DNA from: a virus
Direction: 5' to 3' (one strand)
Length of the DNA: 64,000 nt
Virus record (IMG/VR): IMGVR_UViG_3300042895_001344
Span: 1-64,000 of that record
Program-made: the position numbers and the translations under genes
Shown: piece after piece, positions 3,844 to 56,955 of the stretch
Position numbering within the stretch: position 1 is the stretch's first letter
Layout: the number at the start of each line of letters is the position of its first letter
The notes under the pieces: model-generated
Seen by the model: the letters and a program-made list of their open reading frames with translations, nothing else
Databases searched by the model: none
Told to the model about the DNA's origin: nothing

Positions 3844-4656
3844 TCAAATCAAATTTTGTTTATTTTTTGGTAAATAATTTATATAACTTGGGAAATTTTT
3901 TGATATAAAATCATGTAGTTTATTTGCATAGGTCTTATTATGGTTAGGCCCTGGATGTCCATTATCCACACCTAAATCTAAATATTTCCCATAATCACCA
4001 TCAAATCTGTTGAGTTCATTATGATCTATCGATGTTATTTCTCTAACATTCCAACCATTCCATACCCAATTACAATTTTTAGATTCTAAAAAATATTTTA
4101 TTAATAAATGATTTTTATACCAATTTACGGTATCCTCATTATAATTTTGTAAATAAGTTAAATATTCTTGTGTTTTAATACCATCATCAGTTTCTTTTAA
4201 ATAACCCCAAGAAGCCGTTGGCATGAACGGTTCAATACCACAATCTTTAGTATATATTTCTCTTCTTAAAGGTGAAGGATACATTATAAATATTAAATCA
4301 GGTTTTATTACATCATAATACGTTAATAAACATCTAACAATGAAATCATTACTTCTACCGCCAGCACCAAAATTAAAATTAACACCATTTGGTATCAATG
4401 ATGTGAATTGAGCTGGCCAAGTTTCATGATCATTAACCGCAACACCTTCGGTATTTGAACATCCAAATGACATAATTTTAAACCCTTCTCTTTTAATACT
4501 ATCACCTCTAAATCCTAATTCATTATATGTGTATGTACATAAACCTGTGTTGTCTGTACCTGATGTTTTAAATATTTTGTTTTTTCGTTCACCTAATTTA
4601 AACTTGTACGATGAGATTTCAAATTCATTAGGGTCCCAATATTTTAGTGGATTCAT
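3844..4656 (-). CDS. SGNH/GDSL-like hydrolase or acyl-esterase
   Basis: A 270-residue SGNH-superfamily protein. Block I is IMSFGCSNTEG (about 81-91), where the nucleophile serine follows a cysteine instead of the usual aspartate. FNFGAGGRSND supplies the glycine and asparagine of blocks II/III, and the C-terminal DNGHPGPNHNKTYANKL carries the catalytic-type histidine. The central strand ends in MYPSPLRRE, matching the [ST]-x-x-x-R pattern seen in the other SGNH genes of this window. Such enzymes remove or transfer acyl groups on sugars. A long N-terminal extension (about 75 residues) with the NELGFRGD pattern is also typical of this phage-type group. Overlaps the next oxygenase gene by 4 bases. 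Substrate unknown. Confidence 0.75.
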   Translation of the reverse strand: MNPLKYWDPNEFEISSYKFKLGERKNKIFKTSGTDNTGLCTYTYNELGFRGDSIKREGFKIMSFGCSNTEGVAVNDHETWPAQFTSLIPNGVNFNFGAGGRSNDFIVRCLLTYYDVIKPDLIFIMYPSPLRREIYTKDCGIEPFMPTASWGYLKETDDGIKTQEYLTYLQNYNEDTVNWYKNHLLIKYFLESKNCNWVWNGWNVREITSIDHNELNRFDGDYGKYLDLGVDNGHPGPNHNKTYANKLHDFISKNFPSYINYLPKNKQNLI

Positions 4657-5153
4657 ATTAATTTATTTGTTTCTATTTTTATATGTTCGTTTTCTAAAAA
4701 CCATAATAAAGAATATCGTACACCTTCTAAAATTGGTGTTATTTCATGGTCTATTCTTACATCAAATAAATATGTATTCCCAATAACTTTATCTAATGTA
4801 ATTTCATTTGGGTTATACAATTTAAAGTCACCTCCTTCAAAATCACCATTTAATAAAACTCCCACTGCATATAATCTATTATTTCTAATATCATTATGTT
4901 TTCCAAACCAATCACCTTTTACAAATTTATGAAAATGTATAACTTCTTTATTTTTTTTTATCCGTATGTTTGATTGTTCTTCAAAAAATGTTTTAAGTTT
5001 ATCAAACAACCATTTCGTTTCCAACGAATATGTAATTGATTGTGAATTATATTTTCTATCACTCATTATCCAATTTTTAATATGGGTGTCGTTATACGAT
5101 ATTATAGATTCACACTCCTCTTTATTAAATAAGACTTGTTCCTTTATTAACAT
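4653..5153 (-). CDS. 2OG-Fe(II) oxygenase, prolyl 4-hydroxylase type
   Basis: A 166-residue dioxygenase with the double-stranded beta-helix signature of the P4H group. The iron ligands are H86-x-D88 (in FGKHNDIRN) and H136 (in VRIDHEITP), and R146 is the likely 2-oxoglutarate carboxylate ligand. LLNGDFEGGDFKLY is the conserved strand between them. Family members hydroxylate proline in proteins or act on small molecules; here the target is not known. The gene overlaps the sulfotransferase upstream by 29 bases and the SGNH gene downstream by 4 bases, so the three are likely co-translated. The window also encodes very Pro/Thr-rich fibre proteins, which makes a protein substrate worth considering. 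Confidence 0.82.
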   Translation of the reverse strand: MLIKEQVLFNKEECESIISYNDTHIKNWIMSDRKYNSQSITYSLETKWLFDKLKTFFEEQSNIRIKKNKEVIHFHKFVKGDWFGKHNDIRNNRLYAVGVLLNGDFEGGDFKLYNPNEITLDKVIGNTYLFDVRIDHEITPILEGVRYSLLWFLENEHIKIETNKLI

Positions 5154-5685
5154 TTATTCTATATTTTTCTCCGTAAGGAAAATTTTTATTTTCTAATTCA
5201 ACCATATTTAAATAATCTAATATTTTTTGAAAACCATTATTGTAATATAGTTCTTCATATGATATATTAAAATAATCTTTATTTAAATAATTTTCTTTTA
5301 ATCCGTTTTTGATTTGATTAAAATATGATACATCTCCGTCTTTTATTAAATTTTCTTTAAATACCCATGCTTTATCCCAATTATTTGTTTTATTAGCATT
5401 TAACCAAGATTCACTTTGTTCACTTATATTTTCTCTATATAAAATAATTACCTTATCTGATATTTCTATTAATTCTGAAAAATCTGTTTTAATATCATAT
5501 GTTTCTTTAATTAAAATGTGTGGTGTTTTATATTCCCACAATTTTGGTGATACACCATGTTTATACCACTTCCAATTTGGACTTGTTATGGGTTCAAATA
5601 ATGTGGTAAAATTTTTATTACTAAAAAACCAATTAGTTAAGTTGGTTGATCCACTTCGTGGTTCTGCTAGTATTGTTATAACCAT
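5125..5685 (-). CDS. Sulfotransferase-like protein
   Basis: A 186-residue P-loop protein. ILAEPRSGSTNLTNWF (residues 5-20) matches the 5'-phosphosulfate-binding loop of PAPS-dependent sulfotransferases. VIILYRENISEQSES (79-93) matches the 3'-phosphate motif, with R84 and S91 in the expected spacing. It is shorter than most family members (about 250-300). It probably transfers sulfate from PAPS to a hydroxyl group of a sugar or lipid. An APS-kinase gene lies in the same strand block at 12821-13258 and could supply the donor. The 29-base overlap with the downstream oxygenase suggests coupled translation. The family is fairly clear; the acceptor is not. Confidence 0.78.
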   Translation of the reverse strand: MVITILAEPRSGSTNLTNWFFSNKNFTTLFEPITSPNWKWYKHGVSPKLWEYKTPHILIKETYDIKTDFSELIEISDKVIILYRENISEQSESWLNANKTNNWDKAWVFKENLIKDGDVSYFNQIKNGLKENYLNKDYFNISYEELYYNNGFQKILDYLNMVELENKNFPYGEKYRINVNKGTSLI

Positions 5686-5771
5686 TATTAAAAAATTGAT
5701 GTTGTTAAAGCTCTCATATTAATTTATTTTATAATTTTAATTATATGTTAAAAATTTATTACATAATAAAA

Positions 5772-6353
5772 TTATAATAATGTATTTTTTTCTTTTACAT
5801 TAGAAACATTAAATTTAAAATTACCAGCAATTACAATTCTATCTTTAGTTGAATTTGGGGAAATTTCAGGTTTGTGAAGTATTTTTGACGAAAATAAAAA
5901 TAATTCGTCTTCTTCAGGTAAAACTGAAAATTCATTTTTATCAAAACTATATGAGAACATACCTTCATTACCATTTAAATTATTTGGCATTTGTACATAA
6001 TAAGTGAAGGTTAAATCAGTTATAATGGAATTTTTATATTTTCCTCCCATTTTTAAATGGTCATGCCATAAAGATTGTTTTGTTTCATTTCTTGATATAA
6101 AAACCCAAGTCTCTAAACAATAATCTATAACCGTATCAATTATACCATTCTTTTTGAGATAATCAATTGCCTTTTTAGTTGCTATTTCTTTTATGAAAGT
6201 GATTTCCTTTGTGACCAATCCTAATGGAGTTTGTATACCAGGAGAATCATAATCACCTGTTTGGGATGAATATAAATTAATATTTTTTTTAAGTTGACTA
6301 ATTAATATTTGTTTATCGTATGGATAATCTATTTTATATTTTTCTATTTTCAT
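5772..6353 (-). CDS. Putative 2OG-Fe(II) oxygenase (PF13759-like)
   Basis: A 193-residue protein resembling the TIGR02466/PF13759 oxygenase group. The metal site reads SLWHDHLKMGG with H97 and H99 (an HxH arrangement also found in that family), the distal histidine is in SSKILHKPEISPN (H160) and the 2-oxoglutarate arginine is R172 in DRIVIAGNF. TYYVQMP is the conserved strand following the first histidines. Substrate unknown. The gene has an 86-base A+T-rich gap downstream with no visible feature and a 4-base overlap with the SGNH gene upstream, so it is translated from the same message as the SGNH and sulfotransferase genes. Confidence 0.7.
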   Translation of the reverse strand: MKIEKYKIDYPYDKQILISQLKKNINLYSSQTGDYDSPGIQTPLGLVTKEITFIKEIATKKAIDYLKKNGIIDTVIDYCLETWVFISRNETKQSLWHDHLKMGGKYKNSIITDLTFTYYVQMPNNLNGNEGMFSYSFDKNEFSVLPEEDELFLFSSKILHKPEISPNSTKDRIVIAGNFKFNVSNVKEKNTLL

Positions 6354-6976
6354 ATTATACTTTTATTATTTTTAAAATCTACAATTGGTTCATCTATATT
6401 TAAAAGTTTATGTAGTTTAACATAAAAATCATGGCACCCTTTCCAACCTGGATGCCAATCTATTGGGTCACCTCCTTCATCTGCAATAGAAGTTACTTTT
6501 ATTAATTCTATAAACTCTTTTGTTTTTTCATAAAACTCATCGTTCCATGTTACAAATATTGGTTGGTGGTGGTTATAAAACATTTTTATTTTCTTAAGAA
6601 ATAAAATTTCATCGTCTCGTTCACCATTTAACCAACTATTTGTTTCTTTAATTCGTAATTCAAACAGTTTTTTTGCAAATAATTTATCCTTATACCATTC
6701 CCAATTTAAATATTTTGAATTATGATTTATTTCTCTTTCCCCAAAATATCTTCTTGGGAATCTTGATGGGGATGTAAAAACTATTATGATTCTATCACCA
6801 TTTGTATAATTTGGTATATTTCCTGTTTGGTATAATATAGAGTGATTATCAGCTCCAAATTTTCCAAATTTAATTACGTTATAATGATTGGATAGATAGT
6901 CCGTCCAATGCATTTTAGGTACTTCCCAATCAACAAAACTATCACCACAAATATATAAATTAGATTTTTGTTTCAT
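6350..6976 (-). CDS. SGNH hydrolase-like protein
   Basis: A 208-residue SGNH protein with a classic block I, LYICGDSFVDWE, near the N-terminus. Other landmarks are FGKFGADNHSI (glycine and asparagine of blocks II/III) and a C-terminal IDWHPGWKGCHDFY with the catalytic Asp-x-His-type pair. IVFTSPSRFPRRY carries the [ST]-x-x-x-R-F motif shared by the SGNH proteins of this window. It is likely an esterase or acyl-group handler on carbohydrates. It shares 1 base with the upstream sulfotransferase gene and 4 bases with the downstream oxygenase gene. No signal peptide is seen, so it should act in the cytoplasm on precursors or on virion proteins. Confidence 0.76.
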   Translation of the reverse strand: MKQKSNLYICGDSFVDWEVPKMHWTDYLSNHYNVIKFGKFGADNHSILYQTGNIPNYTNGDRIIIVFTSPSRFPRRYFGEREINHNSKYLNWEWYKDKLFAKKLFELRIKETNSWLNGERDDEILFLKKIKMFYNHHQPIFVTWNDEFYEKTKEFIELIKVTSIADEGGDPIDWHPGWKGCHDFYVKLHKLLNIDEPIVDFKNNKSII

Positions 6977-7659
6977 TACACTAATCTCATATTTTTGGTG
7001 AAGGGCTTTTCAAAAACATCCCAAACCCATTTTTTTAATTCATCATTAACTTCAATTTTATTTTTTATTTTTGATGTTCCATTCATTTTTTTAATTTTTA
7101 ATACTACACCAAATTTTTCATATATTAAATTTTTGAATTTATCTATTTCGGAAATATCAAATTCATAATCACATTTTGTGTTATCTGTCCAATAATTCTT
7201 ACATGCAAATATCGATAACGTATCGGGTAAGTTTTTATTTATTACATTAAAAAATTTACTATATTCTTTTTGTATTTTATATTCATTATCACAATATATT
7301 GCATCTGCTAAATTTTTATTAAAATATTCATAAATAAAGTTATTATCAATATCCGACCAATTATATTTTAATTCGTTTCTATGAAGATGATTTGATATTT
7401 CAAAAAAATATTCCAATGCACTATACCATCTGTCAAACCAATTTCTTGTGATACAACAAGTTTTTTGAAAACCAAATTCTTCTAATAAGAAGTTTTTTCT
7501 AAAATGAAAATGGTGGTTTGTATTTATATTGGGGTAGGGTTCTTTAGATGTTAGATTTATTTGTAATTGATTATTATTTTTTAATGAATCTTCTATTGAG
7601 ACAGACGCACATCTTGGAATTGAAACCCAAATAAGTTGATTGTTAATAAGAATTGACAT
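6976..7659 (-). CDS. Sulfotransferase family protein
   Basis: A 227-residue sulfotransferase-like protein. LIWVSIPRCASVSIEDSL (9-26) is the 5'-phosphosulfate loop and CCITRNWFDRWYSALEYF (68-85) is the 3'-phosphate segment with R72 and S80. The C-terminal MNGTSK...ELKKWVWDVFEKPF pattern is typical of the family's last helices. It probably sulfates a glycan or other hydroxyl acceptor using PAPS. It overlaps the zinc-ribbon gene upstream by one base and the SGNH gene downstream by one base. It is not a close copy of the sulfotransferase at 5125-5685, so the two likely act on different acceptors. Confidence 0.8.
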   Translation of the reverse strand: MSILINNQLIWVSIPRCASVSIEDSLKNNNQLQINLTSKEPYPNINTNHHFHFRKNFLLEEFGFQKTCCITRNWFDRWYSALEYFFEISNHLHRNELKYNWSDIDNNFIYEYFNKNLADAIYCDNEYKIQKEYSKFFNVINKNLPDTLSIFACKNYWTDNTKCDYEFDISEIDKFKNLIYEKFGVVLKIKKMNGTSKIKNKIEVNDELKKWVWDVFEKPFTKNMRLV

Positions 7660-7943
7660 TAAATAATTTTTTCATTATTTAATTTTTTTGCAAAAAACAA
7701 CTTGTCAACTTCTTCCCATTTTCCAATCGGGCATGGATTGTTATTTTTAGAATAAATTTTTTTCATTAATGGACATCCACATAAATCACAAACTATACCT
7801 AATTTAAATTTTTTTATACGTTCTTTTTTGTGTTCACAAGAATTACAAATTTCTGAACGTTTTTGTGCAAGGGACGCTTCTGCGTCAGATGGGTTTGCTG
7901 CTGTTATCCATGCGGATACTATTTCTAATAAATCTAAACTCAT
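7659..7943 (-). CDS. Small zinc-ribbon-like protein
   Basis: A 94-residue protein with C33-x2-C36, C52-x2-C55-x-C57 and a late CPIGKW (C71), spaced as in small zinc-ribbon proteins frequent in marine phages. The N-terminal part, LEIVSAWITAANPSDAEASL, is predicted helical. It could bind zinc and act as an adaptor. I know of no proven function. It shares one base with the sulfotransferase gene downstream and is preceded by a short open frame at 7982-8068. The upstream leader AGTTATATTTAATCA is A+T-rich and lacks a Shine-Dalgarno match. Confidence 0.7.
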   Translation of the reverse strand: MSLDLLEIVSAWITAANPSDAEASLAQKRSEICNSCEHKKERIKKFKLGIVCDLCGCPLMKKIYSKNNNPCPIGKWEEVDKLFFAKKLNNEKII

Positions 7944-7981
7944 TGATTAAATATAACTAATTAAACGATAGGTGTAATTTT

Positions 7982-8068
7982 TTAAGAATTTTCGTTAATA
8001 ATTAATGCACCGATTTGGGTCATTAAATTATTCATTTCTAATATTTCTTGTTCTGTTATTGTATTCAT
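7982..8068 (-). CDS. 28-residue small ORF
   Basis: A short complete frame lies in the gap between the Hint-like protein gene and the zinc-ribbon gene. It encodes MNTITEQEILEMNNLMTQI and then GALIINENS. The peptide is amphipathic and acidic without cysteines. Its start is 22 bases past the stop of the large upstream gene, in line with normal gene packing here. It could be a real small protein or a chance frame; its position beside an ATP-grasp-like protein is noted without claiming a precursor-peptide role. Confidence 0.4.
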   Translation of the reverse strand: MNTITEQEILEMNNLMTQIGALIINENS

Positions 8069-8089
8069 AATATAAATTTTAATAGTTTT

Positions 8090-9625
8090 TTAGAGTTGTA
8101 GACATCTATTTGAATAATATCCACAAGCACCTGTTGCCGAACAAACTTCATACATCTTATCACATCCACCAGACCCTACTCCAATTGAATTACATGGTGC
8201 ACAATATGAATTGTGTTCTACTGCGATATATGATGATACGGTTGCAGAATCACCATCTGTTATGGTTAGGAAAATATGTTCGTCTTGTACACCTATTATA
8301 TATCCACTTAATACTTCGGTTTCGTCTTGTATAGATATCACAGTTTTTTCATTAAATGAAATAGTATCATAATTACCAACATTTATTAATAATAATATAT
8401 CCCCTATTTGTAAATTTGATGTAGTTTGTGTGTTTATATCTTCCCCAATTGTTGCCCACATAACATTGTTATTTCTTTTTATTAAATAAACAGAATTTGA
8501 TGTATCTTTCCAATTTGTTTCGTCACTAAAGTTTAGTGTTGTTAATTTAACTGAAACATCAATTCTTTTTTTAAATGTTATTACATTGGTACTAAATGAT
8601 GAATTTGAAAGAAGTTCATTATAATCAACGTTATATGTCCTCAATTCGTTGGCCTCAGTTATGTTAGGTTGATTTTCATATAGTCTAATTGTTTTAACAG
8701 TATCACCAACCTGTAAATCTTGCCCTGTTTTAAAACTACCATCTGCCATTACAACTAAATCCGTATCAAGTAATTTAGGTTTCACCAACCTTTGTGTCCC
8801 TGTTAAGTATCCGTTTCTATCTACATTAGAAATTTGATGTGTTAGACTATCATATGAGTTGTCATTTAATTCTTGCATAACCTTTAAATTACCATATTTT
8901 TTGTATGCACAGATAGGAATCGATTCTAATGTTGGTGGGTATAAGATATTTAAGGAACGAATAATTGTAATACGTCCTTCGTTTAATTTTTCCTCATTAA
9001 ACAAATATTCCATTAAGAAATAATCTTCATTTACATTATTTGTAATAACTTCATTTAATTCTTCAATATTTGAAACTTTAAAAAATTTTGGGTATACTTC
9101 CCTATCATATATTGGAAATCTTGCTTTTAAAATAAAGTTTGGGTGTATACCATTATTAGGTATGGTCGTTATATTTGATATAACTTGTGAAGTTTCATCC
9201 ATATATGCAAACTTAAACCCAAAATTTTCATTCTGAAACAGTTTTAAAAAATTTACTTTATCTTTGCAGTAAGTTTCGTCAACGATTGCTGAAACATCGT
9301 AGGCACTTCTTACAATTAAGTGATTATCACTATCTTCAATATATGGAATTGTAATACCCCCTAAAGTTTCAATAAATTCATATTCTACCCCCAAATTAAC
9401 ACAAGCCTCATTAAATTTTTCACTTACTTGTGGAATTCCACCGATAAATGTGACCTTTACAAAATTGTTGTTTGATACAAAGCTTATAAATTGTGTCAAA
9501 TTTATGGCCCCCTCAGTCTCAGCCGCTAATCTCACATCCCAACCAATATTGGTGTTTATCTCAATTGGTCTTAAATCACCATTTGAATTGTATGCAAAAT
9601 CTGTCCCTAATAGCAATGTTCTCAT
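8090..9625 (-). CDS. ATP-grasp-like protein with Hint-like module and Cys-rich tail
   Basis: A 511-residue protein with three visible parts. Residues about 1-275 carry RPIEINTNIGWD near the start, HPNFILKARFP and YFLMEYLFNEEKLNEGR, which resemble the metal-binding and nucleotide-binding strands of a divergent ATP-grasp enzyme. Residues about 285-472 resemble a Hint/intein fold: VVMADGSFKTGQDLQVGDTV near its start, LQIGDILLLI in the middle, HIFLTITDGD, and an ending AVEHN followed by Ser. The cysteine or serine expected at the first Hint position is absent (KPKLLDTD). The last 39 residues hold six cysteines. It resembles structural or adhesin-type phage proteins rather than a known biosynthetic enzyme. 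Function unknown; domain calls are by eye. Confidence 0.6.
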   Translation of the reverse strand: MRTLLLGTDFAYNSNGDLRPIEINTNIGWDVRLAAETEGAINLTQFISFVSNNNFVKVTFIGGIPQVSEKFNEACVNLGVEYEFIETLGGITIPYIEDSDNHLIVRSAYDVSAIVDETYCKDKVNFLKLFQNENFGFKFAYMDETSQVISNITTIPNNGIHPNFILKARFPIYDREVYPKFFKVSNIEELNEVITNNVNEDYFLMEYLFNEEKLNEGRITIIRSLNILYPPTLESIPICAYKKYGNLKVMQELNDNSYDSLTHQISNVDRNGYLTGTQRLVKPKLLDTDLVVMADGSFKTGQDLQVGDTVKTIRLYENQPNITEANELRTYNVDYNELLSNSSFSTNVITFKKRIDVSVKLTTLNFSDETNWKDTSNSVYLIKRNNNVMWATIGEDINTQTTSNLQIGDILLLINVGNYDTISFNEKTVISIQDETEVLSGYIIGVQDEHIFLTITDGDSATVSSYIAVEHNSYCAPCNSIGVGSGGCDKMYEVCSATGACGYYSNRCLQL

Positions 9626-9721
9626 ATGTTTTGTTTATACTTTTTTATAAATGATATATCGATTATTTTTATTTAAATATACAAATAATTATTCAATTTA
9701 TCAAATCTATTTTACTTTATC

Positions 9722-9729
9722 TATAAATA
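9722..9729 (-). promoter_or_regulatory. Conserved TATTTATA element upstream of 8090-9625
   Basis: On the minus strand the sequence reads TTAACTATTTATAGATAAAG, about 95 bases upstream of the start of the gene at 9625. It matches the elements before the fibre genes at 56880, 59283 and 62982. I read it as a candidate phage promoter core; the plus-strand reading TATAAATAG looks like a T4-type late promoter but points away from the neighbouring genes. Confidence 0.35.
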
Positions 9730-9739
9730 GTTAATTTTT

Positions 9740-9951
9740 CTCTTTTAGTTCATATTTTATTCATTTATACCAAATTATCTCATATATATAGTATTAAGTG
9801 GGGTTTACATACTAATTTCACAACCTTTTTTTGGGGGGGTCTCAATCTTAATAGATCCACTTTATCCACCATATTGTTAAGAATTAGGTTAAAATACTTA
9901 TAAGACGATATAAAATAGTTTTGAATATATGTCTATTTTTTATACCGTCAT
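9740..9951 (-). pseudogene. Decayed second copy of the DUF2061 gene
   Basis: This otherwise empty 322-base gap (9626-9947) aligns along its right-hand two thirds with the intact DUF2061 gene at 11666-11893. Shared stretches include CATTTATACCAAATT, CCACCATATT and CAATCTTAAT (plus-strand reading). The relic keeps an ATG that overlaps the stop of the upstream oxygenase gene as ATGA, exactly as the intact copy does. Its frame is broken by in-frame stops at codon 4, about 18, 21, 25 and 30 and later, and by a T7G7 homopolymer tract. The SGSIKI residues are still readable. I see no other gene in the gap. Confidence 0.8.
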
Positions 9952-10427
9952 AATAATCTTTTATTCTTTGTGATCCAAATGGCCATAATTTCTCTACAAC
10001 CCGATGTTATTTCTTTAACCTCATGTTGTTCGGTTTGACCATTAAAGTTAACTAAATCTCCCTTTTTAAAATTTACCAATTCATTATTAACATATAATTC
10101 ACCTCCTTCAAAACTATCGTTTAACATAATCAAATACGTTTTACTTGACTTTACATCTATATGATTTCTAGCATAATAACCTGTCTCATATTTAATATAA
10201 TGTAATGAATATATAACCTCATCTTCCTCCAATTTTATATATTTTATTATAGTACTAACTAATATTTGATTACTTAAATCACAATAAAATATTTCTTTTA
10301 AATGAACTATTTTCTCAAAAGACTTACCATGATATGATATTACATCATTATTTTGATTACCAAAATTATAATATTTTAATATTATATCAATATCGTCTTG
10401 ACTTATATAATTTTTAAAAATATTCAT
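9948..10427 (-). CDS. 2OG-Fe(II) oxygenase, PF13640-like
   Basis: A 159-residue dioxygenase. The iron site is H89-x-D91 in YYARNHIDVKSS, with H135 in GQTEQHEVKEI and the co-substrate arginine R145 in SGCREIMAIW. NDSFEGGELYVN and KKGDLVNFNG are conserved family strands. Compact size is typical of the P4H-like group. The stop overlaps the start codon of the decayed DUF2061 copy. The next oxygenase gene begins only 3 bases upstream, so two hydroxylase-type enzymes are made from one message. Substrate unknown. Confidence 0.82.
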   Translation of the reverse strand: MNIFKNYISQDDIDIILKYYNFGNQNNDVISYHGKSFEKIVHLKEIFYCDLSNQILVSTIIKYIKLEEDEVIYSLHYIKYETGYYARNHIDVKSSKTYLIMLNDSFEGGELYVNNELVNFKKGDLVNFNGQTEQHEVKEITSGCREIMAIWITKNKRLL

Positions 10428-10430
10428 TTA

Positions 10431-10991
10431 TTAAATTAAATTTAATTTTTGAATTATTTGACTTTTTTCAATTGGCATCACAATAGACCATCTTTCCCCA
10501 TTTGTAATTTCTTTTATTTCGTGCCATATTCTACAATGATATCCCAACGCCGTACCAGGTTCTTTATTTATTATAATCTCGTTACCGGAATCATCCCACG
10601 TAATGTATTCACCACCATCATAGTCATCATTCAATTGTATCCCTAAATTATATCTTCTTTCTTCGTATCCTTTAATTAAATCTATATGCTTTGTAAAATG
10701 GTCGCCAATTGTATATCTATGCAAAGTACATATAAGTGTTTTAAAAGTTTTGTCAATTTTAACTTCACTAACTTCACTAAACCAATTAATTAATTTATCA
10801 TAAAACCAATTGGTTTCATTATTATTTAATATGGTGTACACTTCATATGACATTAAATTTTGATTACTTTTTATTCTCTGTCCATCGATAAGTTTTGACG
10901 GAAACCAACCTTCTAATTCTGTATATTTTTTGTGGTATTGTATTATAGTTTGACATTCCTCTTTTGTAAATATTTTTTCTTGGTAAATCAT
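10431..10991 (-). CDS. 2OG-Fe(II) oxygenase, prolyl 4-hydroxylase type
   Basis: A 186-residue dioxygenase with H102-x-D104 in HFTKHIDLIKG, H157 in CRIWHEIKEI and R167 in NGERWSIVMP. LGIQLNDDYDGGEYITW is the P4H family strand. It resembles the protein at 4653-5153 in layout (MxxxEKIFTKEECQTII against MLIKEQVLFNKEECESII at the N-terminus), so the two are probably paralogues. The leader on the minus strand contains ATTGTATATTTAAATTAAA, also found upstream of the gene starting at 9625, and may be a shared promoter. Target unknown. Confidence 0.83.
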   Translation of the reverse strand: MIYQEKIFTKEECQTIIQYHKKYTELEGWFPSKLIDGQRIKSNQNLMSYEVYTILNNNETNWFYDKLINWFSEVSEVKIDKTFKTLICTLHRYTIGDHFTKHIDLIKGYEERRYNLGIQLNDDYDGGEYITWDDSGNEIIINKEPGTALGYHCRIWHEIKEITNGERWSIVMPIEKSQIIQKLNLI

Positions 10992-11031
10992 ACATACTAC
11001 TTTAATTTAAATATACAATAATTTTTTGTAA

Positions 11032-11598
11032 TTACCAATTCTTTCCATTATAATGTGGTTCTATCATTAGTTTAAGCCACTTCTCCTCTTCACTAATCAA
11101 TTTTTCTAATTGAATAGAGTGTTCGTGTGGTAAGGTACTTAATGCCGTTTCTATGGAATTGTATTTAGTTGGTAGTTTAAATTCATATTGGGTCGGTGAC
11201 CATTGTAATTTGGAATCAGTTGGAGTAAGTTGAGACAGATCTCGAAGTTTATAAAATGAAAATCCTAACTTTTTATGTAATGGATAAAGTTTTTTATATA
11301 GATACGGATACCAATGTACGGAACCACCTTCTATCATATTGGTTACAATATCAATTACGTCCAATTGAGGTTTGAATGATAAATCAGTTACTGTACCAGA
11401 TAGAAAATGTTCCATTATAGGTCTATATATAAAAGTAGTACCACTATGTATATGTTTCTCTAAATCAGTTATGTCAAATCCAAAAGTATCTATACGATTT
11501 TTCACATCTAACCCCTCTAACCAACGGGTACCACATTTTAAAGGTGCGATTATATCTAATCCGTTTTTATATATACAACGTTTAAGTCTAATTTTCAT
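11032..11598 (-). CDS. Divergent sulfotransferase-like protein
   Basis: A 188-residue protein. GLDIIAPLKCGTRWLEGL (13-30) has the position and shape of a 5'-phosphosulfate loop, and TTFIYRPIMEHFLSGTV (54-70) matches the 3'-phosphate motif with R59 and S67 in the right spacing. The rest is not recognisable to me. It is a plausible but degenerate sulfotransferase. It lies directly downstream of the APS-kinase operon in the same orientation, which fits use of PAPS. Alternative: an unrelated P-loop-like protein. A 67-base gap on its upstream side holds no gene. Confidence 0.55.
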   Translation of the reverse strand: MKIRLKRCIYKNGLDIIAPLKCGTRWLEGLDVKNRIDTFGFDITDLEKHIHSGTTFIYRPIMEHFLSGTVTDLSFKPQLDVIDIVTNMIEGGSVHWYPYLYKKLYPLHKKLGFSFYKLRDLSQLTPTDSKLQWSPTQYEFKLPTKYNSIETALSTLPHEHSIQLEKLISEEEKWLKLMIEPHYNGKNW

Positions 11599-11665
11599 TA
11601 TAGGTTAGTTACAGTATAATACTTTTATTTGTAATTCCCCCCACCATTTCTTTATACCATTATAA

Positions 11666-11893
11666 CTATGTTTTGGATTTTTTGAAATCTTTTAATCCAA
11701 ATTTTATCCATTTATACCAAATTCTTTCGTGAATATAGTATTGGATGGGTTTATATATTAATTCTACTACCCCAAAAGCCGTTCCAATCTTAATTGATCC
11801 ACTTACCCACCATATTATTAAGAACCCAATAAGGGTACTTATAATACGATATGATATGGTTTTAGCGATGTGTCTCTTCCTTTCTACTATCAT
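11666..11893 (-). CDS. DUF2061 small membrane protein
   Basis: A 75-residue protein matching the DUF2061 pattern: KTISYRIISTLIGFLIIWW, then SGSIKIGTAFGVVELIYKP and YYIHERIWYKW. Two hydrophobic segments (about residues 17-30 and 35-50) suggest a small inner-membrane protein. Its function is unknown. The start overlaps the upstream hydroxylase-like gene as ATGA, and it ends a four-gene overlapping operon with APS kinase. DUF2061 genes are often found near sulfate-activation genes in bacteria, to my knowledge, which fits this context. A broken copy lies at 9740-9951. Confidence 0.85.
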   Translation of the reverse strand: MIVERKRHIAKTISYRIISTLIGFLIIWWVSGSIKIGTAFGVVELIYKPIQYYIHERIWYKWIKFGLKDFKKSKT

Positions 11894-12441
11894 AATAATG
11901 TTTTAGATTTTTTGGAATTGTTTTTATCAATAACTTTCCAATCAATTAATAAATGAATTCTATCAGTTTCTCCATTATTGATAACCGAATGTGGTTTATC
12001 ACTATTATTTATTTCCCAAATCTCACCTTGTTTCATATTAATCTCTTCACCATCAACTTCAAATATGCACATATCGTTGGTTACAATTGGAATGTGTATT
12101 CTGTTTCTAGAATCAAAATATATATGTGCATCGGTATGTGGTTTTATTTTTTTAGATTTTGGTAAATTTATTAGAATTGCAGTTTCAATATGACCTTCTC
12201 CTATTTTTGTTGTTAAAATATCACCGATACTATCCAAATCATTTTTAAAAATATTATAATCTTTCCAATATTTTAATTGTGTTTTTTCGTTATCCCATAA
12301 AATCGGAATTGTAAATGTTTCCGCGTGGACATGATACGATTCTTGTCTAAATGTAAATTCATTCCAATCTAAATCTTTTAGATGATTTGATATATTGCTA
12401 ACATCATATCTTTCGTAATATTTAAAATTAAAATCTATCAT
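11890..12441 (-). CDS. Aspartyl/asparaginyl beta-hydroxylase-like oxygenase
   Basis: A 183-residue 2OG-Fe(II) enzyme of the PF05118 type. The core reads KPHTDAHIYFD (H102, D104), RNRIHIPIVTN, MKQGEIWEINNSDKPHSV (H151) and ETDRIHLLIDW (R161), the standard order of this family. Members hydroxylate Asp/Asn in proteins or lipids. It overlaps the nucleotidyltransferase gene upstream and the DUF2061 gene downstream by 4 bases each, so all are translationally linked. Substrate is unknown; operon context with PAPS-type enzymes suggests a role in the same surface modification. Confidence 0.85.
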   Translation of the reverse strand: MIDFNFKYYERYDVSNISNHLKDLDWNEFTFRQESYHVHAETFTIPILWDNEKTQLKYWKDYNIFKNDLDSIGDILTTKIGEGHIETAILINLPKSKKIKPHTDAHIYFDSRNRIHIPIVTNDMCIFEVDGEEINMKQGEIWEINNSDKPHSVINNGETDRIHLLIDWKVIDKNNSKKSKTLL

Positions 12442-12824
12442 TTATCATTCATATTAGGATATTCGATAATATCTCCGTTAGAGTCAATATACCCGTTTCT
12501 GATACTTGTACCACTAATTTTAGCAACATCTTCAGGTGGTTCGTGGTAAATAACATCATACCCAACCCCTCTACCATAATTGATACTTTCAATATCGGGA
12601 ATAATAGATATATTAATTTTATGTGAATTTTCCTTAAAAAACGGTTCGTCCGCCAAATCCATCATAACCTGTTGAGCGGTTTTTGGGTTATTCTCATCTG
12701 TCTCCACATTTCTAATGGCTACCCACACATTCTTTCCTTTCTCTAATTGTTGATTAAGTAACCACTCGTGACCCTTGTGCCAATTCTGCCATCTGCCCAC
12801 ATACATCGCATATTTTTTATTCAT
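12438..12824 (-). CDS. HxGH nucleotidyltransferase (cytidylyltransferase-like)
   Basis: A 128-residue protein of the HIGH superfamily: MYVGRWQNWHKGHEWLL carries H16-x-G-H19, and AKISGTSIRNG (101-111) is the second nucleotide-binding signature. The ISGTxxR form resembles the C-terminal motif of ATP sulfurylase and of NMN adenylyltransferases. It directly follows the APS-kinase gene with a 4-base overlap, so a role in making APS (sulfate plus ATP) is possible, but the protein is far shorter than a typical ATP sulfurylase. Other possibilities are NMN or CTP:alcohol-phosphate adenylyl/cytidylyl transfer. Confidence 0.7.
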   Translation of the reverse strand: MNKKYAMYVGRWQNWHKGHEWLLNQQLEKGKNVWVAIRNVETDENNPKTAQQVMMDLADEPFFKENSHKINISIIPDIESINYGRGVGYDVIYHEPPEDVAKISGTSIRNGYIDSNGDIIEYPNMNDK

Positions 12825-13258
12825 AGTGTTAATTTTTTTAATATTTCATAATAAGAATCTACTTCGGTTTTACCTGTTGTATCCAAATCTATAAAGTTTT
12901 CGGTCGGTGGTTCGTAGTTCTCCACATGAAACTGATTTCTACCTCTATCCTCTGTCGTGTGTACATAAACCTCAATAACGTCTTCTCTATTCTTAAAGTC
13001 CTCCCTTTGGTCTTTATATGGTGAAACTAAGGATACCAAGACCGTAAACCCCTTTTTATTCAAAAATTGAGCAATGTCTTGTGCTCTTTCAATATTTTTT
13101 CTCCTTCCCACCTCAGAATAGTCCTTATTTTGGAAGATATCCCTCAAATCGTCACCATCTATAATAATAGTGTTCTCCTTACCAAAATGGGTTAGGAGGT
13201 TGTTTACTAACGTAGTCTTACCTGATGCGGGTTGTCCGGTGAACCAATATATTGACAT
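12821..13258 (-). CDS. cysC: Adenylylsulfate (APS) kinase, short form
   Basis: A 145-residue P-loop kinase expected to phosphorylate APS to PAPS, the donor for sulfotransferases. Walker A is FTGQPASGKTTLV (6-18). IIIDGDDLRDIF (31-42), YSEVGRRKNIERAQDIA (47-63) and LVSPYKDQRE (77-86) match the CysC order DGDxxR / RxxNI / SPYR. It is shorter than bacterial CysC (about 200). It is first of four overlapping genes (CysC, nucleotidyltransferase, hydroxylase, DUF2061). The leader CTTTATATTATAGTATTATG lacks a Shine-Dalgarno match. Three sulfotransferase-like genes lie downstream on the same strand. Confidence 0.85.
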   Translation of the reverse strand: MSIYWFTGQPASGKTTLVNNLLTHFGKENTIIIDGDDLRDIFQNKDYSEVGRRKNIERAQDIAQFLNKKGFTVLVSLVSPYKDQREDFKNREDVIEVYVHTTEDRGRNQFHVENYEPPTENFIDLDTTGKTEVDSYYEILKKLTL

Positions 13259-27447: not shown

Positions 27448-27448
27448 A

Positions 27449-28423: not shown

Positions 28424-28424
28424 T

Positions 28425-30030: not shown

Positions 30031-30576
30031 ATGAGTTCACCAGAATATACCCCATATAAGGACGCACTAACAAATTCAATGACTTACCTTGGTCAACAGG
30101 AAGATACTGTATTTATAGGTCAACAGGTTCTTTGGCACGGTAATCCAATGAGTACGACCATTGGTGATGTTCCTAAAGAAAAACTAATTGAACTTCCCGT
30201 TATGGAAGAATCTCAAATGGGTATGTCATTAGGAATGGCTATGGCTGGTAAGTTTGTCGTTACATTCTACCCTCGTTGGGATTTTGTAATATGTTCAACA
30301 AATCAATTAGTTAACCATGTTGATAAAATTGGATTAATGAGTCAAGGTAAATGGCAACCTAATATGATTATTCGTTTAGGTAAGGGTTCTGATAAACCGT
30401 TAGATCCAGGTCATCAACACAGAGGTAATTACTTTGAGGAATTCAAATCCATGTGTCCTAATATTAATTTTATTGATTTAAAGGATTGGAACGATATTGA
30501 ATTACATTATAAAAACGCATACGAAAAAGGTGGTATTCATGTAATTGTGGAATATCCTGAATTATATTATATTTAA
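30031..30576 (+). CDS. Thiamine diphosphate enzyme, E1-beta-like subunit
   Basis: A 181-residue protein matching the transketolase pyrimidine-binding domain: DTVFIGQQVLWHGNPM, LPVMEESQMGMSLGMAMAG with the catalytic glutamate, FYPRWDFVICSTNQLVNHV and MIIRLGKGS. The usual C-terminal transketolase_C domain is absent, so it is a stripped-down beta subunit. Its alpha partner is at 23914-24549. The last 15 bases overlap the end of a convergent radical SAM gene. This is the last gene of the plus-strand island. Confidence 0.8.
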   Translation: MSSPEYTPYKDALTNSMTYLGQQEDTVFIGQQVLWHGNPMSTTIGDVPKEKLIELPVMEESQMGMSLGMAMAGKFVVTFYPRWDFVICSTNQLVNHVDKIGLMSQGKWQPNMIIRLGKGSDKPLDPGHQHRGNYFEEFKSMCPNINFIDLKDWNDIELHYKNAYEKGGIHVIVEYPELYYI

Positions 30577-31644
30577 TTTTTTATTAACTAAATGATGGAA
30601 ATTATGTGTAACAATTTTCTTTTTATTTATATAATATAATTCATTCATGAATGAATTAAAAAATGGATGATCTTCTTTAAAAACTTGTATTTTTTTAACT
30701 TCTTCTTCGGTGTATGCACCATCTCCCCAATGTACATGTTGTGTATAATTAATATGTAATTTAAAACTACTACTTTTAAAAATATCTGTCATTATATTAT
30801 AAAACATTCCCATTTCTAAATAATTTTTCTCACTTACAACAAAAGACAATGTTAAATAATTAATAGTATCAATTGTACTTATAAATTTGAGATTACCTAA
30901 TAACATATCCCAATCACCATTTAATCTGGTAATATTTTCGTAAGTATATTTAGTTCCCGCATCTATACTAATTTCAATAGATCCTATATATTTTTTCGCT
31001 TGTAATGAATTCCACATTTTTTCATTTAACATTTTACCGTTAGTAATAATGTTTATATATTGTAAATTTGGATATTTTTTAATATCAAAATTAATTAAAT
31101 AGTTTCTATAAATTTTAGAATAAAATGGATCTCCACTACCAGTTATTAATATTGTTTTTATATGACTGGCAAATTTAGTCTCAATTTCATAAAGAGTTTT
31201 TAATTTATCTTGATGTTTTTTAGAATTTTCATCATCATTTGAAACTAAGTCCAATCTACAAGATGGACATTTAAAATTACAACTTCTATCAAAACCAAAT
31301 AAAACGTTCTCAGGATGGGTTTCTATTTTTTCAACATCTTCGATTGAGTTAATTTTATGATAGTTTAGAAATTTTTCTTTTTCTATGAAATTAATTGGTA
31401 TTTCGTTTGTGTTTAATAATCTATTTAAACTAGGACACACATTATGATCACAATGTCTATATGTTCCATCTAATACTGATTTCCGTATATCAATTGCCGT
31501 ATTAGTATCCCACTCTATTTCTTCTTTGCCGTCTCTAATACTTGTTGGACACCATGAGGGGCAACAAACATACACTTGATATGGTTGTAAGTCCATATAA
31601 CTAAACGGGTTAGTACAAACATATTTATTTAACTTATCCTTCAT
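30562..31644 (-). CDS. Radical SAM protein
   Basis: A 360-residue radical SAM enzyme. The CxxxCxxC cluster motif is DRSCNFKCPSCRLD (C122, C126, C129). The cysteines before it (CCPSWC, CDHNVC) suggest additional cluster or metal sites, as in SPASM/twitch-type proteins. ILITGSGDPFYSK matches the SAM-binding region. I take the ATG at 31644 (MKDKLNKYVC); earlier in-frame codons would extend it across the next gene. The start overlaps the upstream small-protein gene by 11 bases. Substrate unknown; peptide or glycan modification is possible. Confidence 0.78.
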   Translation of the reverse strand: MKDKLNKYVCTNPFSYMDLQPYQVYVCCPSWCPTSIRDGKEEIEWDTNTAIDIRKSVLDGTYRHCDHNVCPSLNRLLNTNEIPINFIEKEKFLNYHKINSIEDVEKIETHPENVLFGFDRSCNFKCPSCRLDLVSNDDENSKKHQDKLKTLYEIETKFASHIKTILITGSGDPFYSKIYRNYLINFDIKKYPNLQYINIITNGKMLNEKMWNSLQAKKYIGSIEISIDAGTKYTYENITRLNGDWDMLLGNLKFISTIDTINYLTLSFVVSEKNYLEMGMFYNIMTDIFKSSSFKLHINYTQHVHWGDGAYTEEEVKKIQVFKEDHPFFNSFMNELYYINKKKIVTHNFHHLVNKKLNII

Positions 31645-32062
31645 TTTCTTCTTTTGTTGGCCAACTAACTTCCCAATCTTTAAAATCAGCCGCAATACAA
31701 TCAATTTTATAATCTTTTCTTCCACCAACAACTTCTTGTATTTTATTCTTGGCGGTATTTCTTATACCATTTAATCCGTGAGTTAACGATAACATACTTG
31801 GTCCTTCTTTTCCACTTCTTACATTAGATTCGTTATGCCAAATGTGTAAATTCATTTGTGCACATACAATAACCGCTCTCAACATCTCACCAGTTATAAC
31901 AACATCTTTCTCACTTAAAATAAGTTGTATGTCGTGTGTGATATCAGCAATTTCTTTAGCGTATTCTTCTTTATGTTCAGTTATAAACACTTCTTTTAAT
32001 TGTACAATCGAAAGTCTATCAATTAACTCCGATAATGTTGGTAAAAATCTTCTTTGTTCCAT
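31634..32062 (-). CDS. Conserved phage protein, unknown function
   Basis: A 142-residue helical protein. It contains LPTLSELIDRLSIVQLKE near the start, LRAVIVCAQMNLHIWHNES in the middle and SLTHGLNGIRNTAKNKI. No catalytic motif or signal peptide is seen. The SELIDRLSI pattern with paired helices recalls small phage and cluster proteins near glycosyltransferases, but I cannot assign a family. It sits between an SGNH gene upstream (1-base overlap) and a radical SAM gene downstream, so it is probably part of that operon. Confidence 0.55.
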   Translation of the reverse strand: MEQRRFLPTLSELIDRLSIVQLKEVFITEHKEEYAKEIADITHDIQLILSEKDVVITGEMLRAVIVCAQMNLHIWHNESNVRSGKEGPSMLSLTHGLNGIRNTAKNKIQEVVGGRKDYKIDCIAADFKDWEVSWPTKEENEG

Positions 32063-33027
32063 TATATTAATTTGTTTTGTTTTTTTATTTCTGATAAATA
32101 ATCATTTTTTATTATAAAATCATACATAGTTTTTGCAATCTCAGTATGAGCTTTTATTGACGGGTGTGCACAGGGTGTTATATATCCACCTTTTGACATT
32201 TTTTTATTTGAGTACGCGTAATCGTAATATTTTGCCGATGATTCTACACCTATTAAATCGTCTCTATTCTCTAAATGACATAACATGTCAGCAACACAAG
32301 AAAAACCTCCTGGTTTGAGGTAACTATCCCAATTAACCATAGTCATCAATTCATTAAGATAATGAATATTACCATAAAGATAGTTTTCCTTTGTTTTTTC
32401 TCCTCTTATTTTTTTATAAAATGATTCATTGTTATAATCTGTTGAGAAAGCACTTGTTAATATTAATTTTGCATTATTTGCTTTACACCATGTTTGAGCT
32501 TCATGAATGTTCAATATTAATTCTATTGTTGCGGATCTATCTGAATAGATATGAGTAAGATACTCATTCCATAAACCTCTTTCATCTCCGACATGTGAAT
32601 CGGTTGGCCACATTGTTTTAAAATGAATATGTTGATTTAAATTTTTATGTACAAAATCAAATCTCTCCATACCTGTTAACATGAAAATAACTATTTTTTC
32701 TTTTATATTTTCAAATTTAAACGCGGGGTGCATTGATAATTGTTTAACAGATGCTCGATTACCTCTACCTACCATACCTAAATTAATCGACATATAATCT
32801 GTTAAATGGTTTTTACATAATTGATTTACCCATGAGTTTTCATAAAAGATTGTATCCACGATTTTTTCGTCGGATTCAGGAACATTTTTCATATCCCAAT
32901 TATATTTTTTCCATATATCTTCACTACAAGCACCTTGTCCTTGTGTAAAACTATCTCCAATACCAATTATAACTTTAGAATCTGTAGTTAATTTTCTAAT
33001 TAAATCGTATTTATACCAATCAAACAT
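32062..33027 (-). CDS. SGNH hydrolase-like protein
   Basis: A 321-residue SGNH protein, longest of the set. VIIGIGDSFTQGQGAC is block I with the normal Asp, NLGMVGRGNRASVKQ the block II/III glycine and asparagine, IFMLTGMERFDFV the T-x-x-x-R-F motif and ITPCAHPSIKAHTEI the C-terminal histidine region. An insert of about 60 residues precedes the last motif. Overlaps the glycosyltransferase gene upstream by 1 base. Predicted acyl-group handling on a glycan. Confidence 0.78.
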   Translation of the reverse strand: MFDWYKYDLIRKLTTDSKVIIGIGDSFTQGQGACSEDIWKKYNWDMKNVPESDEKIVDTIFYENSWVNQLCKNHLTDYMSINLGMVGRGNRASVKQLSMHPAFKFENIKEKIVIFMLTGMERFDFVHKNLNQHIHFKTMWPTDSHVGDERGLWNEYLTHIYSDRSATIELILNIHEAQTWCKANNAKLILTSAFSTDYNNESFYKKIRGEKTKENYLYGNIHYLNELMTMVNWDSYLKPGGFSCVADMLCHLENRDDLIGVESSAKYYDYAYSNKKMSKGGYITPCAHPSIKAHTEIAKTMYDFIIKNDYLSEIKKQNKLI

Positions 33028-34313
33028 TAAATTAAATTTTTAATTTTATTTGTATGATTACAATAATTTTTTAAATTGGTATACGCTTCAGGTAATTTAA
33101 ATAATTTACCAACCAATACTGATTGATTATATTTTATAATTTCTTCCATAGAAGAAAACCATTTTAATTTATCTTGAATATCATCAACTTTTTTAATTGA
33201 CTCAATAATATATTGTAACCTTTCATGTGTCGGTAAATGATCATATCCCTCATCTATAAAACCATCAAATGTTTTATATCCAATTTTTTTCATCATTTCC
33301 ATACTATCCTTATTCCCCATTATAATAAATGGACTATTACATGCAATAACTTTAAATGTTTTTTCACTTAAAAACATGGTTTCGTCACTATCACCACAAT
33401 GAGCTTCACTAATAACCGTCATAAATGTATCTAATGAAATTTGATTATTGAATCTTCTAATATAGAAATTATCATCAAATTCATCGTTACTTTTTTCATG
33501 TACTAAAAGTGGTAATCCAACTAATATTTCGTCTATACGTTCTTTACTTATTTCTTGTCCTTCAAATATATAACCATGTTTATCGAATGAGTTCATACTA
33601 ACTAATCCCTTGTTAATTAATCCCGCTTGATGTAAGTAATTATAAAACCAAACTCTTTGTAATCTAATTCTTTTATTTAAACAAGCGAAAGTTTTAATAT
33701 GAGATATATTTTCTGTTTTATGTGTGATGTGATCTTCAAATGTTGGTAATGGGTGGTTATCTCTGATTTTTTCATAACACATCATCCCCATATCTAATTC
33801 AAAATGTGAATATGGTATAACTTTAATCTTTTCAATTACATCATTGTCTTTTGTCCATTTTTCATATGTTTCATCGGCAATCATATTACCAGTAACATAA
33901 ATGATACGTGTTGGTGAAACATTCCATTCTTTACATTCTTTATGAAACCACTCCCATAACCAAGGTGTTTGATACCCCTCTAAACTTTGATCCAACATAA
34001 CATAAGCTTTATTATTTCTTAAGTCAGTTAGATATTTTTCATTAAGATAAAAGAAAAAACTTTTAACCCTAGGGTCATACCCTGTCCAATCATCGGGACT
34101 ATGGTTTACTGATGTTGGGATTATATACTCTTCATCAATTATTTCATCTACCGAATAATAATTTAACTCTCCATTAATATTTGATAATTGGCAATTAATG
34201 TTTGTTGCGGTTAATAATGGTGATATACCAAACCTATTAATCCCTGATCTATTAATATCTTTACAGGAAGTAAAATTAGCCAGATTAAACTTATCTTCAA
34301 AAACAAAATTCAT
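33027..34313 (-). CDS. Glycosyltransferase-like protein, divergent member of phage GT-B family
   Basis: A 428-residue protein related to those at 18507-22321 and 24534-25796, with greatest similarity to the first half of the duplicated protein. TFACLNKRIRLQRVWFYNY replaces the usual HR block, and TVISEAHCGDSDETMFLSEK followed by TFKVIACNSPFIIMG is the TES/SEK equivalent; KTFDGFIDEGYDHL also aligns. It lacks the family H in the HR motif (LQR). A donor-sugar role is inferred. It overlaps the radical SAM gene upstream by 1 base and the SGNH gene downstream by 1 base. Confidence 0.68.
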   Translation of the reverse strand: MNFVFEDKFNLANFTSCKDINRSGINRFGISPLLTATNINCQLSNINGELNYYSVDEIIDEEYIIPTSVNHSPDDWTGYDPRVKSFFFYLNEKYLTDLRNNKAYVMLDQSLEGYQTPWLWEWFHKECKEWNVSPTRIIYVTGNMIADETYEKWTKDNDVIEKIKVIPYSHFELDMGMMCYEKIRDNHPLPTFEDHITHKTENISHIKTFACLNKRIRLQRVWFYNYLHQAGLINKGLVSMNSFDKHGYIFEGQEISKERIDEILVGLPLLVHEKSNDEFDDNFYIRRFNNQISLDTFMTVISEAHCGDSDETMFLSEKTFKVIACNSPFIIMGNKDSMEMMKKIGYKTFDGFIDEGYDHLPTHERLQYIIESIKKVDDIQDKLKWFSSMEEIIKYNQSVLVGKLFKLPEAYTNLKNYCNHTNKIKNLI

Positions 34314-44009: not shown

Positions 44010-44022
44010 AATTATTTATTAT

Positions 44023-44220
44023 TTAATCGTAATATACTTCTTTTATTGTTAATGTAACACCAGAATAAATAGAATATCCATTCATTTGATTTATTTTATT
44101 TTCACATTCTTCTACAGTATTAAATTCATATATTCCATCACCTATTATTGGTGGATGTAATATTAATGGGTCTCCAACATGTTCTATTTTTTTCTTTAAT
44201 ATTTGATATTTTATTGTCAT
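44023..44220 (-). CDS. Small protein of adhesin region
   Basis: A 65-residue protein: ILKKKIEHVGDPLILHPPII then YEFNTVEECENKINQM. No domain is recognised. It is in the adhesin bank and in the same orientation, with 6 bases to the next gene upstream and 13 bases to the gene downstream. Codon use matches neighbours. It may be a small chaperone or connector for a fibre, but this is an inference from position only. Confidence 0.55.
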   Translation of the reverse strand: MTIKYQILKKKIEHVGDPLILHPPIIGDGIYEFNTVEECENKINQMNGYSIYSGVTLTIKEVYYD

Positions 44221-44226
44221 ATAATA

Positions 44227-44946: not shown

Positions 44947-44958
44947 AATTTTTTATTT

Positions 44959-45726: not shown

Positions 45727-45744
45727 ATCTTATTATTTTCCATA

Positions 45745-46104: not shown

Positions 46105-46113
46105 AATTTTTTT

Positions 46114-47145: not shown

Positions 47146-47172
47146 ATTGATAAATATTTGTTTTATTGTGTT

Positions 47173-47991: not shown

Positions 47992-48001
47992 AATTAATTT
48001 T

Positions 48002-56880: not shown

Positions 56881-56885
56881 ATCAA

Positions 56886-56893: not shown

Positions 56894-56907
56894 GTTTATT
56901 TAAACAA

Positions 56908-56936: not shown

Positions 56937-56955
56937 ATTATTTTTATTTGTTGTT

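Follow-up and report, generated by a model that had tools for sequence, protein, structure and literature searches.

The window analysed here, a 64,000-nucleotide stretch (positions 1 to 64,000) of the 217-kb IMG/VR virus record IMGVR_UViG_3300042895_001344, carries between positions 3844 and 12441 a cassette of genes for 2-oxoglutarate (2OG)-Fe(II) oxygenases and other putative modification enzymes, together with a gene that we call H (8090-9625). Coordinates given below are window positions unless marked as record positions. Because the record encodes a T4-type major capsid protein (record 178504-180261; closest to those of Microcystis phage Mel-JY01 and Flavobacterium phage immuto, 38-39% identity), we regard the virus as a T4-like myovirus. 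An earlier note on this DNA had combined the oxygenases with Pro/Thr-rich virion proteins into an extensin-type coat of hydroxylated, glycosylated and sulfated fibres, a reading which overlooked both gene H and a short C-terminal tag common to the cassette enzymes.

The five stand-alone oxygenase open reading frames (ORFs) on which that reading was built (4653, 5772, 9948, 10431 and 11890) are indeed present, all on the minus strand, as is one fused oxygenase, 25798, in which an NAD-sugar epimerase is joined to PF13640. Pfam assigns 9948 and 10431 to PF13640 (E 9.5e-9 and 5e-10, respectively) and 11890 to PF05118 (Asp_Arg_Hydrox, E 1e-14), the nearest solved structure of the latter being L-proline cis-4-hydroxylase (4p7w, E 3e-5); 4653 and 5772 fall below Pfam and match the PHROG 2OG families phrog_61 (E 2.5e-13) and phrog_81 (E 1e-13). 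An HxD...H...R facial triad with the 2OG arginine can be read from the sequence of four of the five stand-alone enzymes and of 25798 (HND/HEI/R in 4653, HID/HEV/R in 9948, HID/HEI/R in 10431, HTD/HSV/R in 11890 and HRD/HAV/R in 25798), and 5772 has an HDH (HxH) pattern in place of HxD. The label of prolyl 4-hydroxylase (P4H) type is a fair one, as the family profile of 10431 and 4653 matches PKHD-type hydroxylases as well as prolyl hydroxylases of the bacterial, algal and collagen kinds among PDB entries (E 1e-9 to 1e-3), with PKHD and P4H matches at similar E-values. The sulfotransferases are supported in part: neither 5125 nor 6976 has a Pfam match itself, but in the related locus L105 a protein of the 6976 family matches Sulfotransfer_2 (1.1e-5).

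Ten of the 12 ORFs of at least 90 amino acids (aa) between 3844 and 12441 end in the tag K/N-x-[LI]-[LI]-COOH, that is, two terminal aliphatic residues preceded by Lys or Asn, compared to 13 of 175 elsewhere in the record (Fisher p 6e-9). The C-terminal ends in the cassette are NKQNLI, IETNKLI, KGTSLI, EKNTLL, NNKSII, KNMRLV, NNEKII, KNKRLL, QKLNLI and SKKSKTLL, and the tag is borne by enzymes of unrelated families and folds (2OG oxygenases, sulfotransferases, SGNH hydrolases and radical SAM), to which relatives add SET, guanidinoacetate methyltransferase (GAMT)-like and Trp-halogenase enzymes. Upon shuffling of the gene order, the observed adjacency of tagged genes was reached in 158 of 100,000 cases. 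When 3000 pairs of homologues sharing 25-60% identity were compared, hydrophobic residues filled both final positions in 95-96% and K/R/N occupied position -4 in 68%, the other positions of the C-terminus drifting; since codons and stop codons vary, the tag appears to be selected as peptide and not as DNA. Two DNA-level sources were considered and rejected: the T4-type late promoter TATAAATA, a conceivable origin of L-I-stop endings, is not enriched, and codons and stops differ, while the ATGA gene overlap accounts at most for the third base of the final codon and not for two hydrophobic residues. Two more 2OG oxygenases, both untagged, lie beyond the window at record 200984-201712 (PF13640) and record 213915-214697 (PhyH-type).

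IMG/VR scans with an oxygenase, with gene H and with gene Z (7659) yielded about 170 related loci, in which tagging follows the presence of H. A run of at least three tagged genes was found in 121 of 126 loci with H (H+) vs 8 of 39 without it (H-), all eight of the latter lying on contigs that are short or break off close to the cassette. In H+ loci (over 100) Z is tagged and followed by 5-14 tagged genes, often consecutive, and in loci with a Z relative but no H, Z is untagged and there is no tagged run. Likewise, where phages encode homologous enzymes in the absence of H, as in ten loci (S-CAM8, ACG-2014d, PhiXhv-12, AG-345-E15, DLP_6, HTVC008M, P-SSM2, S-PM2 and two uncultured), only 9 of 172 ORFs are tagged and the oxygenases end directly after the fold. 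By family, the tag was present in relatives on 112/121 PF13640-like 2OG oxygenases, 18/20 radical SAM, 9/10 SET and 5/6 Trp-halogenase proteins, and on 52/58 and 45/46 members of the two sulfotransferase-like families (together 97/104); within the GDSL family, neighbours were tagged in 77% for tagged members and 17% for untagged ones (p 1e-5). Never tagged in the same loci were H itself (0/57), carbamoyltransferases (0/16), APS kinases (0/12) and the nucleotidyltransferase (0/13). Among 84,980 prokaryotic genomes a single relative of H was detected, on a 3.7-kb contig of a Pelagibacterales metagenome-assembled genome, with a tagged oxygenase and a tagged Z alongside; there was no match to H among 50,697 phage records, and no relatives among named phages were found for H, Z, 3844, 5772 or 6976. 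One related record (G002, that of locus L042) holds two H genes, at 27285-28793 and 65135-66634.

Short hydrophobic C-termini can be degrons or cargo peptides (ssrA-like tags, encapsulin), and the tag could thus be a degron or a virion-packaging or membrane-targeting signal instead of a means of docking to H or Z, an explanation compatible with a peptide substrate. However, the tag is confined to modification enzymes and to H+ loci, and the genes of ordinary phage type in these records are untagged; we consider such a signal somewhat unlikely.

The protein encoded by H begins with an ATP-grasp domain, continues with a Hint domain and ends in a hypervariable Cys-rich tail. Its AlphaFold2 (AF2) model, obtained with 52 relatives, reached a predicted local distance difference test score (pLDDT) of 82 and a predicted template modelling score (pTM) of 0.77, an earlier model from nine sequences being poor (pLDDT 65). 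In Foldseek comparisons residues 1-275 of the model matched yeast glutathione synthase (1m0t, E 2.6e-4) and ArgX/LysX (0.03), and D9, E22, N24, T25, R106, K167 and R223, including the ExNT motif, are invariant in 62/62 sequences; as modelled, the N-terminal domain is a glutathione synthetase (GSS)-like ATP-grasp by fold and by metal/ATP residues. The Hint domain matched the bacterial intein-like (BIL) domain BIL2 (6y75, E 5e-9), Hedgehog (1at0, 2e-5) and also inteins, and the family profile matched the KlbA intein (2jmz, E 3.7e-5, hmmsearch). Its terminal His-Asn is invariant (62/62). Position 1 is mostly Pro, Tyr, Leu or Lys, and the residue after His-Asn is Ser/Thr in 6/62 and Cys in 0/62 sequences, so that H does not have the residue pair of splicing inteins, which start with Cys/Ser and are followed by Cys/Ser/Thr at +1. 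With the position-1 nucleophile lost, +1 never Cys and His-Asn kept, C-terminal cleavage would be allowed and ordinary splicing would not.

The tail after His-Asn is hypervariable, about 25-90 residues long and 16% Cys, and in 54 of 56 tails less than 60% alike the number of Cys is even (p 4e-14), which is the sequence signature of a putative disulfide-bonded mini-protein. Some members carry a Peptidase_S74 autoprotease after the tail. The H homologue of L105 (10001-11947) has its Cys-rich part followed by a second Hint domain with a canonical Cys1 start (CFTGDALISTPDG) and the end LLVHNN, and the tail would therefore be flanked there by two self-cutting domains. Gene Z, which matches phrog_13558, bears the strict tag in 59 of the 71 distinct sequences whose locus includes H, most others having relaxed variants such as KKTLF, and is untagged in 15 of 18 sequences without H. 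Since untagged Z-type Zn-ribbon proteins also occur in other viruses without H (L162-L178 and similar), Z probably had an older role.

The distant fold matches of H include ArgX and LysX, partners of the carrier LysW, and Z is a small Zn-ribbon protein, which together could point to a secondary-metabolite cluster in which H is an amino-acid ligase acting on a carrier and the product is a halogenated, hydroxylated small molecule derived from amino acids or sugars. A cluster of carbamoyltransferases, halogenase and 2OG enzymes in the cyanophage S-SSM6a has been so interpreted, or else as decorating the capsule, by Iyer et al. (2021, PMC7824862). Nonetheless, the cyanophage homologues examined have neither tag nor H, Z had to be rejected as a LysW relative as it gave no match to LysW in the PDB, and the paired-Cys hypervariable tail would be left unexplained, which makes this explanation quite improbable.

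If the tail is the substrate, the enzyme types should follow tail composition. In a phylogenetic generalized least squares (PGLS) regression on the H tree, covering 74 distinct tails and 210 family-residue pairs, the first rank was taken by SET, a protein-lysine methyltransferase fold, with tail Lys (p 6e-5), a pairing expected beforehand. The second was family f205, a GAMT-like relative (E 6e-21), with tail Arg (p 6.6e-5), and fourth place went to family f176, by sequence a 2OG oxygenase with HxD...H...R, whose profile has no match in the PDB, with tail Pro (p 0.0015). The same residue tests on the body of H gave no such relation. This covariation is good, but not conclusive, evidence that the Cys-rich tail of H may be the substrate.

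The same results bear on a modification of surface glycan or lipopolysaccharide (LPS), whereby the enzymes would decorate a host-envelope sugar or lipid and exclude other phages, the tag and H organising the pathway. PF05118 includes LpxO-type lipid hydroxylases, and glycosyltransferases, epimerases and a NolO/NodU-type carbamoyltransferase are encoded nearby; moreover, hypervariable regions of pelagimyophages have been read as envelope modification (PMC7029224). Yet the glycan genes of these loci, carbamoyltransferases among them, are untagged, the tagged families include enzymes of protein/amino-acid type (SET, GAMT-like, Trp halogenase), and enzyme types covary with tail residues, so that we regard a glycan or LPS target as distinctly unlikely.

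As to the extensin-type coat, the Pro/Thr-rich proteins at 54004-59283 are real (P+T 32% in 54004, 48% in 56956 and 51% in 58801). They share record and strand with the oxygenases, which would hydroxylate their prolines ahead of glycosylation and sulfation; 10431-type enzymes are related to P4H, and the TP repeats are similar to plant arabinogalactan glycomodules. However, in the comparison of related phages that the note had suggested, hydroxylase genes and Pro/Thr rods do not regularly co-occur: of 18 large H+ records, which may be fragments, 11 had no detected (PT)3P-coding DNA, among them G013, a 238-kb record with four PF13640 genes. The oxygenases are therefore not tied to Pro/Thr rods; the tagged ones track H, to which the covariation with tail composition points as well, and the coat becomes the least probable of the alternatives weighed here. 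Collagen-like hydroxylation of fibres with Gly-X-Y (GXY) tracts was also ruled out, as these tracts hold no Pro. What stands of the proposal that the phage modifies its own gene product is the hydroxylation and sulfation, backed at the sequence level, and not the Pro/Thr fibre coat as that product: a phage product is likely still hydroxylated, but a different one. Untagged enzymes (glycosyltransferases, 25798, 200984; e.g. the LamG-fused glycosyltransferase 38616) could act on the rods or fibres.

Several further proteins of virion type were observed. Long fibre-like proteins with Gly-X-Y tracts of Ser, Thr and Asn, collagen-like by period only, are encoded at window 50165-53692 and 59371-62982 and at record 68312-70012. 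The C-terminus KSFCAEAP is common to two large proteins (record 97970-103333 and window 54004-56880), and more Pro/Thr-rich proteins lie at record 153689 and 158156. At window 36520-41461, the GT-7-type 38616 and 40046 and the radical SAM protein 36520 apparently have, as judged by eye, LamG-like domains resembling those of virion-type proteins at 43296-48682, with a Pfam Laminin_G_3 match for 38616 only.

Features of the cassette and of outlying tagged genes (window coordinates)
Feature	Position	Strand	Basis
Gene H, N-terminal region, residues 1-275, circularly permuted glutathione-synthetase-like ATP-grasp (modelled)	8801..9625	-	AF2 model, Foldseek, invariant residues
Gene H, Hint (intein/BIL/Hedgehog) domain, residues about 283-472, without Cys at intein position 1	8210..8779	-	Foldseek, profile
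Gene H, predicted released peptide SYCAPCNSIGVGSGGCDKMYEVCSATGACGYYSNRCLQL, 39 aa, 6 Cys	8093..8209	-	Tail after HN
Gene Z, small Zn-ribbon protein, tag NNEKII	7659..7943	-	Conserved CxxC/CxxCxCP...C
Putative client, SGNH/GDSL-like hydrolase, tag KQNLI	3844..4656	-	Weak GDSL match of homologue
Putative client, 2OG-Fe(II) oxygenase, tag TNKLI	4653..5153	-	phrog_61; HND/HEI/R
Putative client, sulfotransferase-like, tag GTSLI	5125..5685	-	45/46 family members tagged
Putative client, 2OG-Fe(II) oxygenase, tag KNTLL	5772..6353	-	phrog_81
Putative client, SGNH-like hydrolase, tag NKSII	6350..6976	-	Motif GDSFVDW
Putative client, sulfotransferase-like, tag NMRLV	6976..7659	-	Family 52/58 tagged; L105 match
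Putative client, 2OG-Fe(II) oxygenase, tag NKRLL	9948..10427	-	PF13640
Putative client, 2OG-Fe(II) oxygenase, prolyl-hydroxylase-like, tag KLNLI	10431..10991	-	PF13640; PDB P4H/PKHD profile matches
Putative client, Asp/Asn-hydroxylase-type oxygenase, tag SKTLL	11890..12441	-	PF05118; 4p7w
Untagged member of a family mostly tagged in relatives (9/10)	11032..11598	-	Family count
Putative supply genes 12438 (cytidylyltransferase-like) and 12821 (APS kinase), never tagged	12438..13258	-	PF01583 1.5e-17, weak PF01467
Outlying putative client, radical SAM, tag KLNII	30562..31644	-	40% identity with a tagged gene in the L014 cassette; family 18/20 tagged
Outlying tagged genes 32062 (SGNH, QNKLI) and 33027 (IKNLI)	32062..34313	-	Tag

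A DUF2061 membrane protein at window 11666-11893 is kept beside the nucleotidyltransferase in many related loci.

Taken together, these results make it reasonably probable that the oxygenases of 4653-12441 are tailoring enzymes of a virus-encoded factory, similar to those for ribosomally synthesized and post-translationally modified peptides (RiPPs), for a modified Cys-rich peptide. In such a factory, H would make the precursor, composed of ATP-grasp, Hint and disulfide-rich C-terminal peptide, and the tagged clients would use the carboxylate tag at their C-terminus to dock on a shared receptor, for which H and Z are the likeliest candidates. They would hydroxylate, sulfate or otherwise modify tail side chains, as the covariation suggests. 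APS kinase 12821 and nucleotidyltransferase 12438 would supply 3'-phosphoadenosine 5'-phosphosulfate (PAPS) for sulfation, and Asn cyclisation at His471-Asn472 is predicted to release the 39-residue peptide. At the level of sequence, the tag, the clustering and link to H, the H domains, the disulfide-type tails and the tail-enzyme covariation form the basis from which we infer tag-mediated docking, tail modification, autocleavage of H, and the export and function of the peptide. The position of the cassette near fibre genes and the S74 fibre chaperone on some H proteins would favour a peptide carried on the virion.

Several points weigh against a peptide factory. The enzyme identities behind the Arg and Pro correlations were assigned only after these were known, the third-ranked pair (halogenase with Arg) and other high-ranked pairs make no chemical sense, the relation of halogenase with Trp is gone after phylogenetic correction (p 0.79), and sulfotransferase with Tyr and Asp-hydroxylase with Asp/Asn show no relation in the corrected test. 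The Hint domain is without Cys1 and the block-F His is absent in about half of the H sequences, so that cleavage may be slow or lost. In addition, disulfides need an oxidising setting, which a cytoplasmic precursor leaves unexplained.

A wider version, for which we hold the chances to be even, would be a plug-in system: any enzyme gaining the tag would be recruited to the self-excising ATP-grasp-Hint precursor and act on its hypervariable disulfide-rich tail, the mix of hydroxylation, sulfation, methylation and halogenation being phage-specific, and the ATP-grasp domain may read or ligate the tag carboxylate. If the peptide factory is real, it would provide a function for part of the many oxygenase and sulfotransferase-like genes of large aquatic phages, make phages producers of conotoxin-like modified peptides, and offer a simple rule by which one short C-terminal tag gathers unrelated enzymes on one substrate; the tag would then help to spot more clients in sequence data and to study how peptides are modified.

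Parts of the proposed system have known counterparts. The N-terminal domain of H shares the permuted ATP-grasp fold and the ExNT metal motif with glutathione synthetase-type ligases and with ArgX/LysX and its LysW, which are carboxylate ligases, but is fused to Hint and a Cys-rich tail. With inteins, BIL and Hedgehog Hint domains (6y75, 1at0, 2jmz) H has in common the fold, a block A-like DG..K..L..GD motif and the terminal His-Asn; unlike them, it lacks the position-1 nucleophile, is never followed by Cys at +1 and would undergo C-terminal cleavage only. Encapsulin cargo peptides and the C-terminal docking motifs of nonribosomal peptide synthetases (NRPS) and polyketide synthases (PKS) are likewise short motifs on unrelated enzymes of one pathway, although sequence, partner and setting are different and neither a shell protein nor a carrier domain was found.

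Large cyanophages carry uncharacterised 2OG enzymes (PMC3037559), and the cluster of jumbo cyanophage S-SSM6a, as described in PMC7824862, resembles the cassette in its 2OG oxygenases, Trp halogenase and carbamoyltransferases and in its large aquatic phage. It differs insofar as tag, H and Z were not found in the homologous cyanophage and pelagiphage loci examined, S-SSM6a itself being compared by description only. Neither the passages of these papers that were consulted nor targeted literature searches gave a report of the C-terminal tag or of an ATP-grasp-Hint precursor. The closest likeness is to RiPP clusters (the scaffolded micrococcin pathway, PMC10634744, and conotoxin-like peptides), which combine a ribosomal precursor and its variable C-terminal core with adjacent tailoring enzymes, as in the H tail next to 5-14 tagged enzymes, and gather these enzymes by protein-protein contacts, as predicted for the cassette. 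In contrast to them, the precursor here would be a 480-650 aa ATP-grasp-Hint protein with predicted self-excision of the core, one C-terminal tag is common to the tailoring enzymes, and the cassette occurs almost only in viruses. By sequence, the tag, the precursor architecture and the near restriction to viruses thus set this system and its predicted product apart from every RiPP class that we found.

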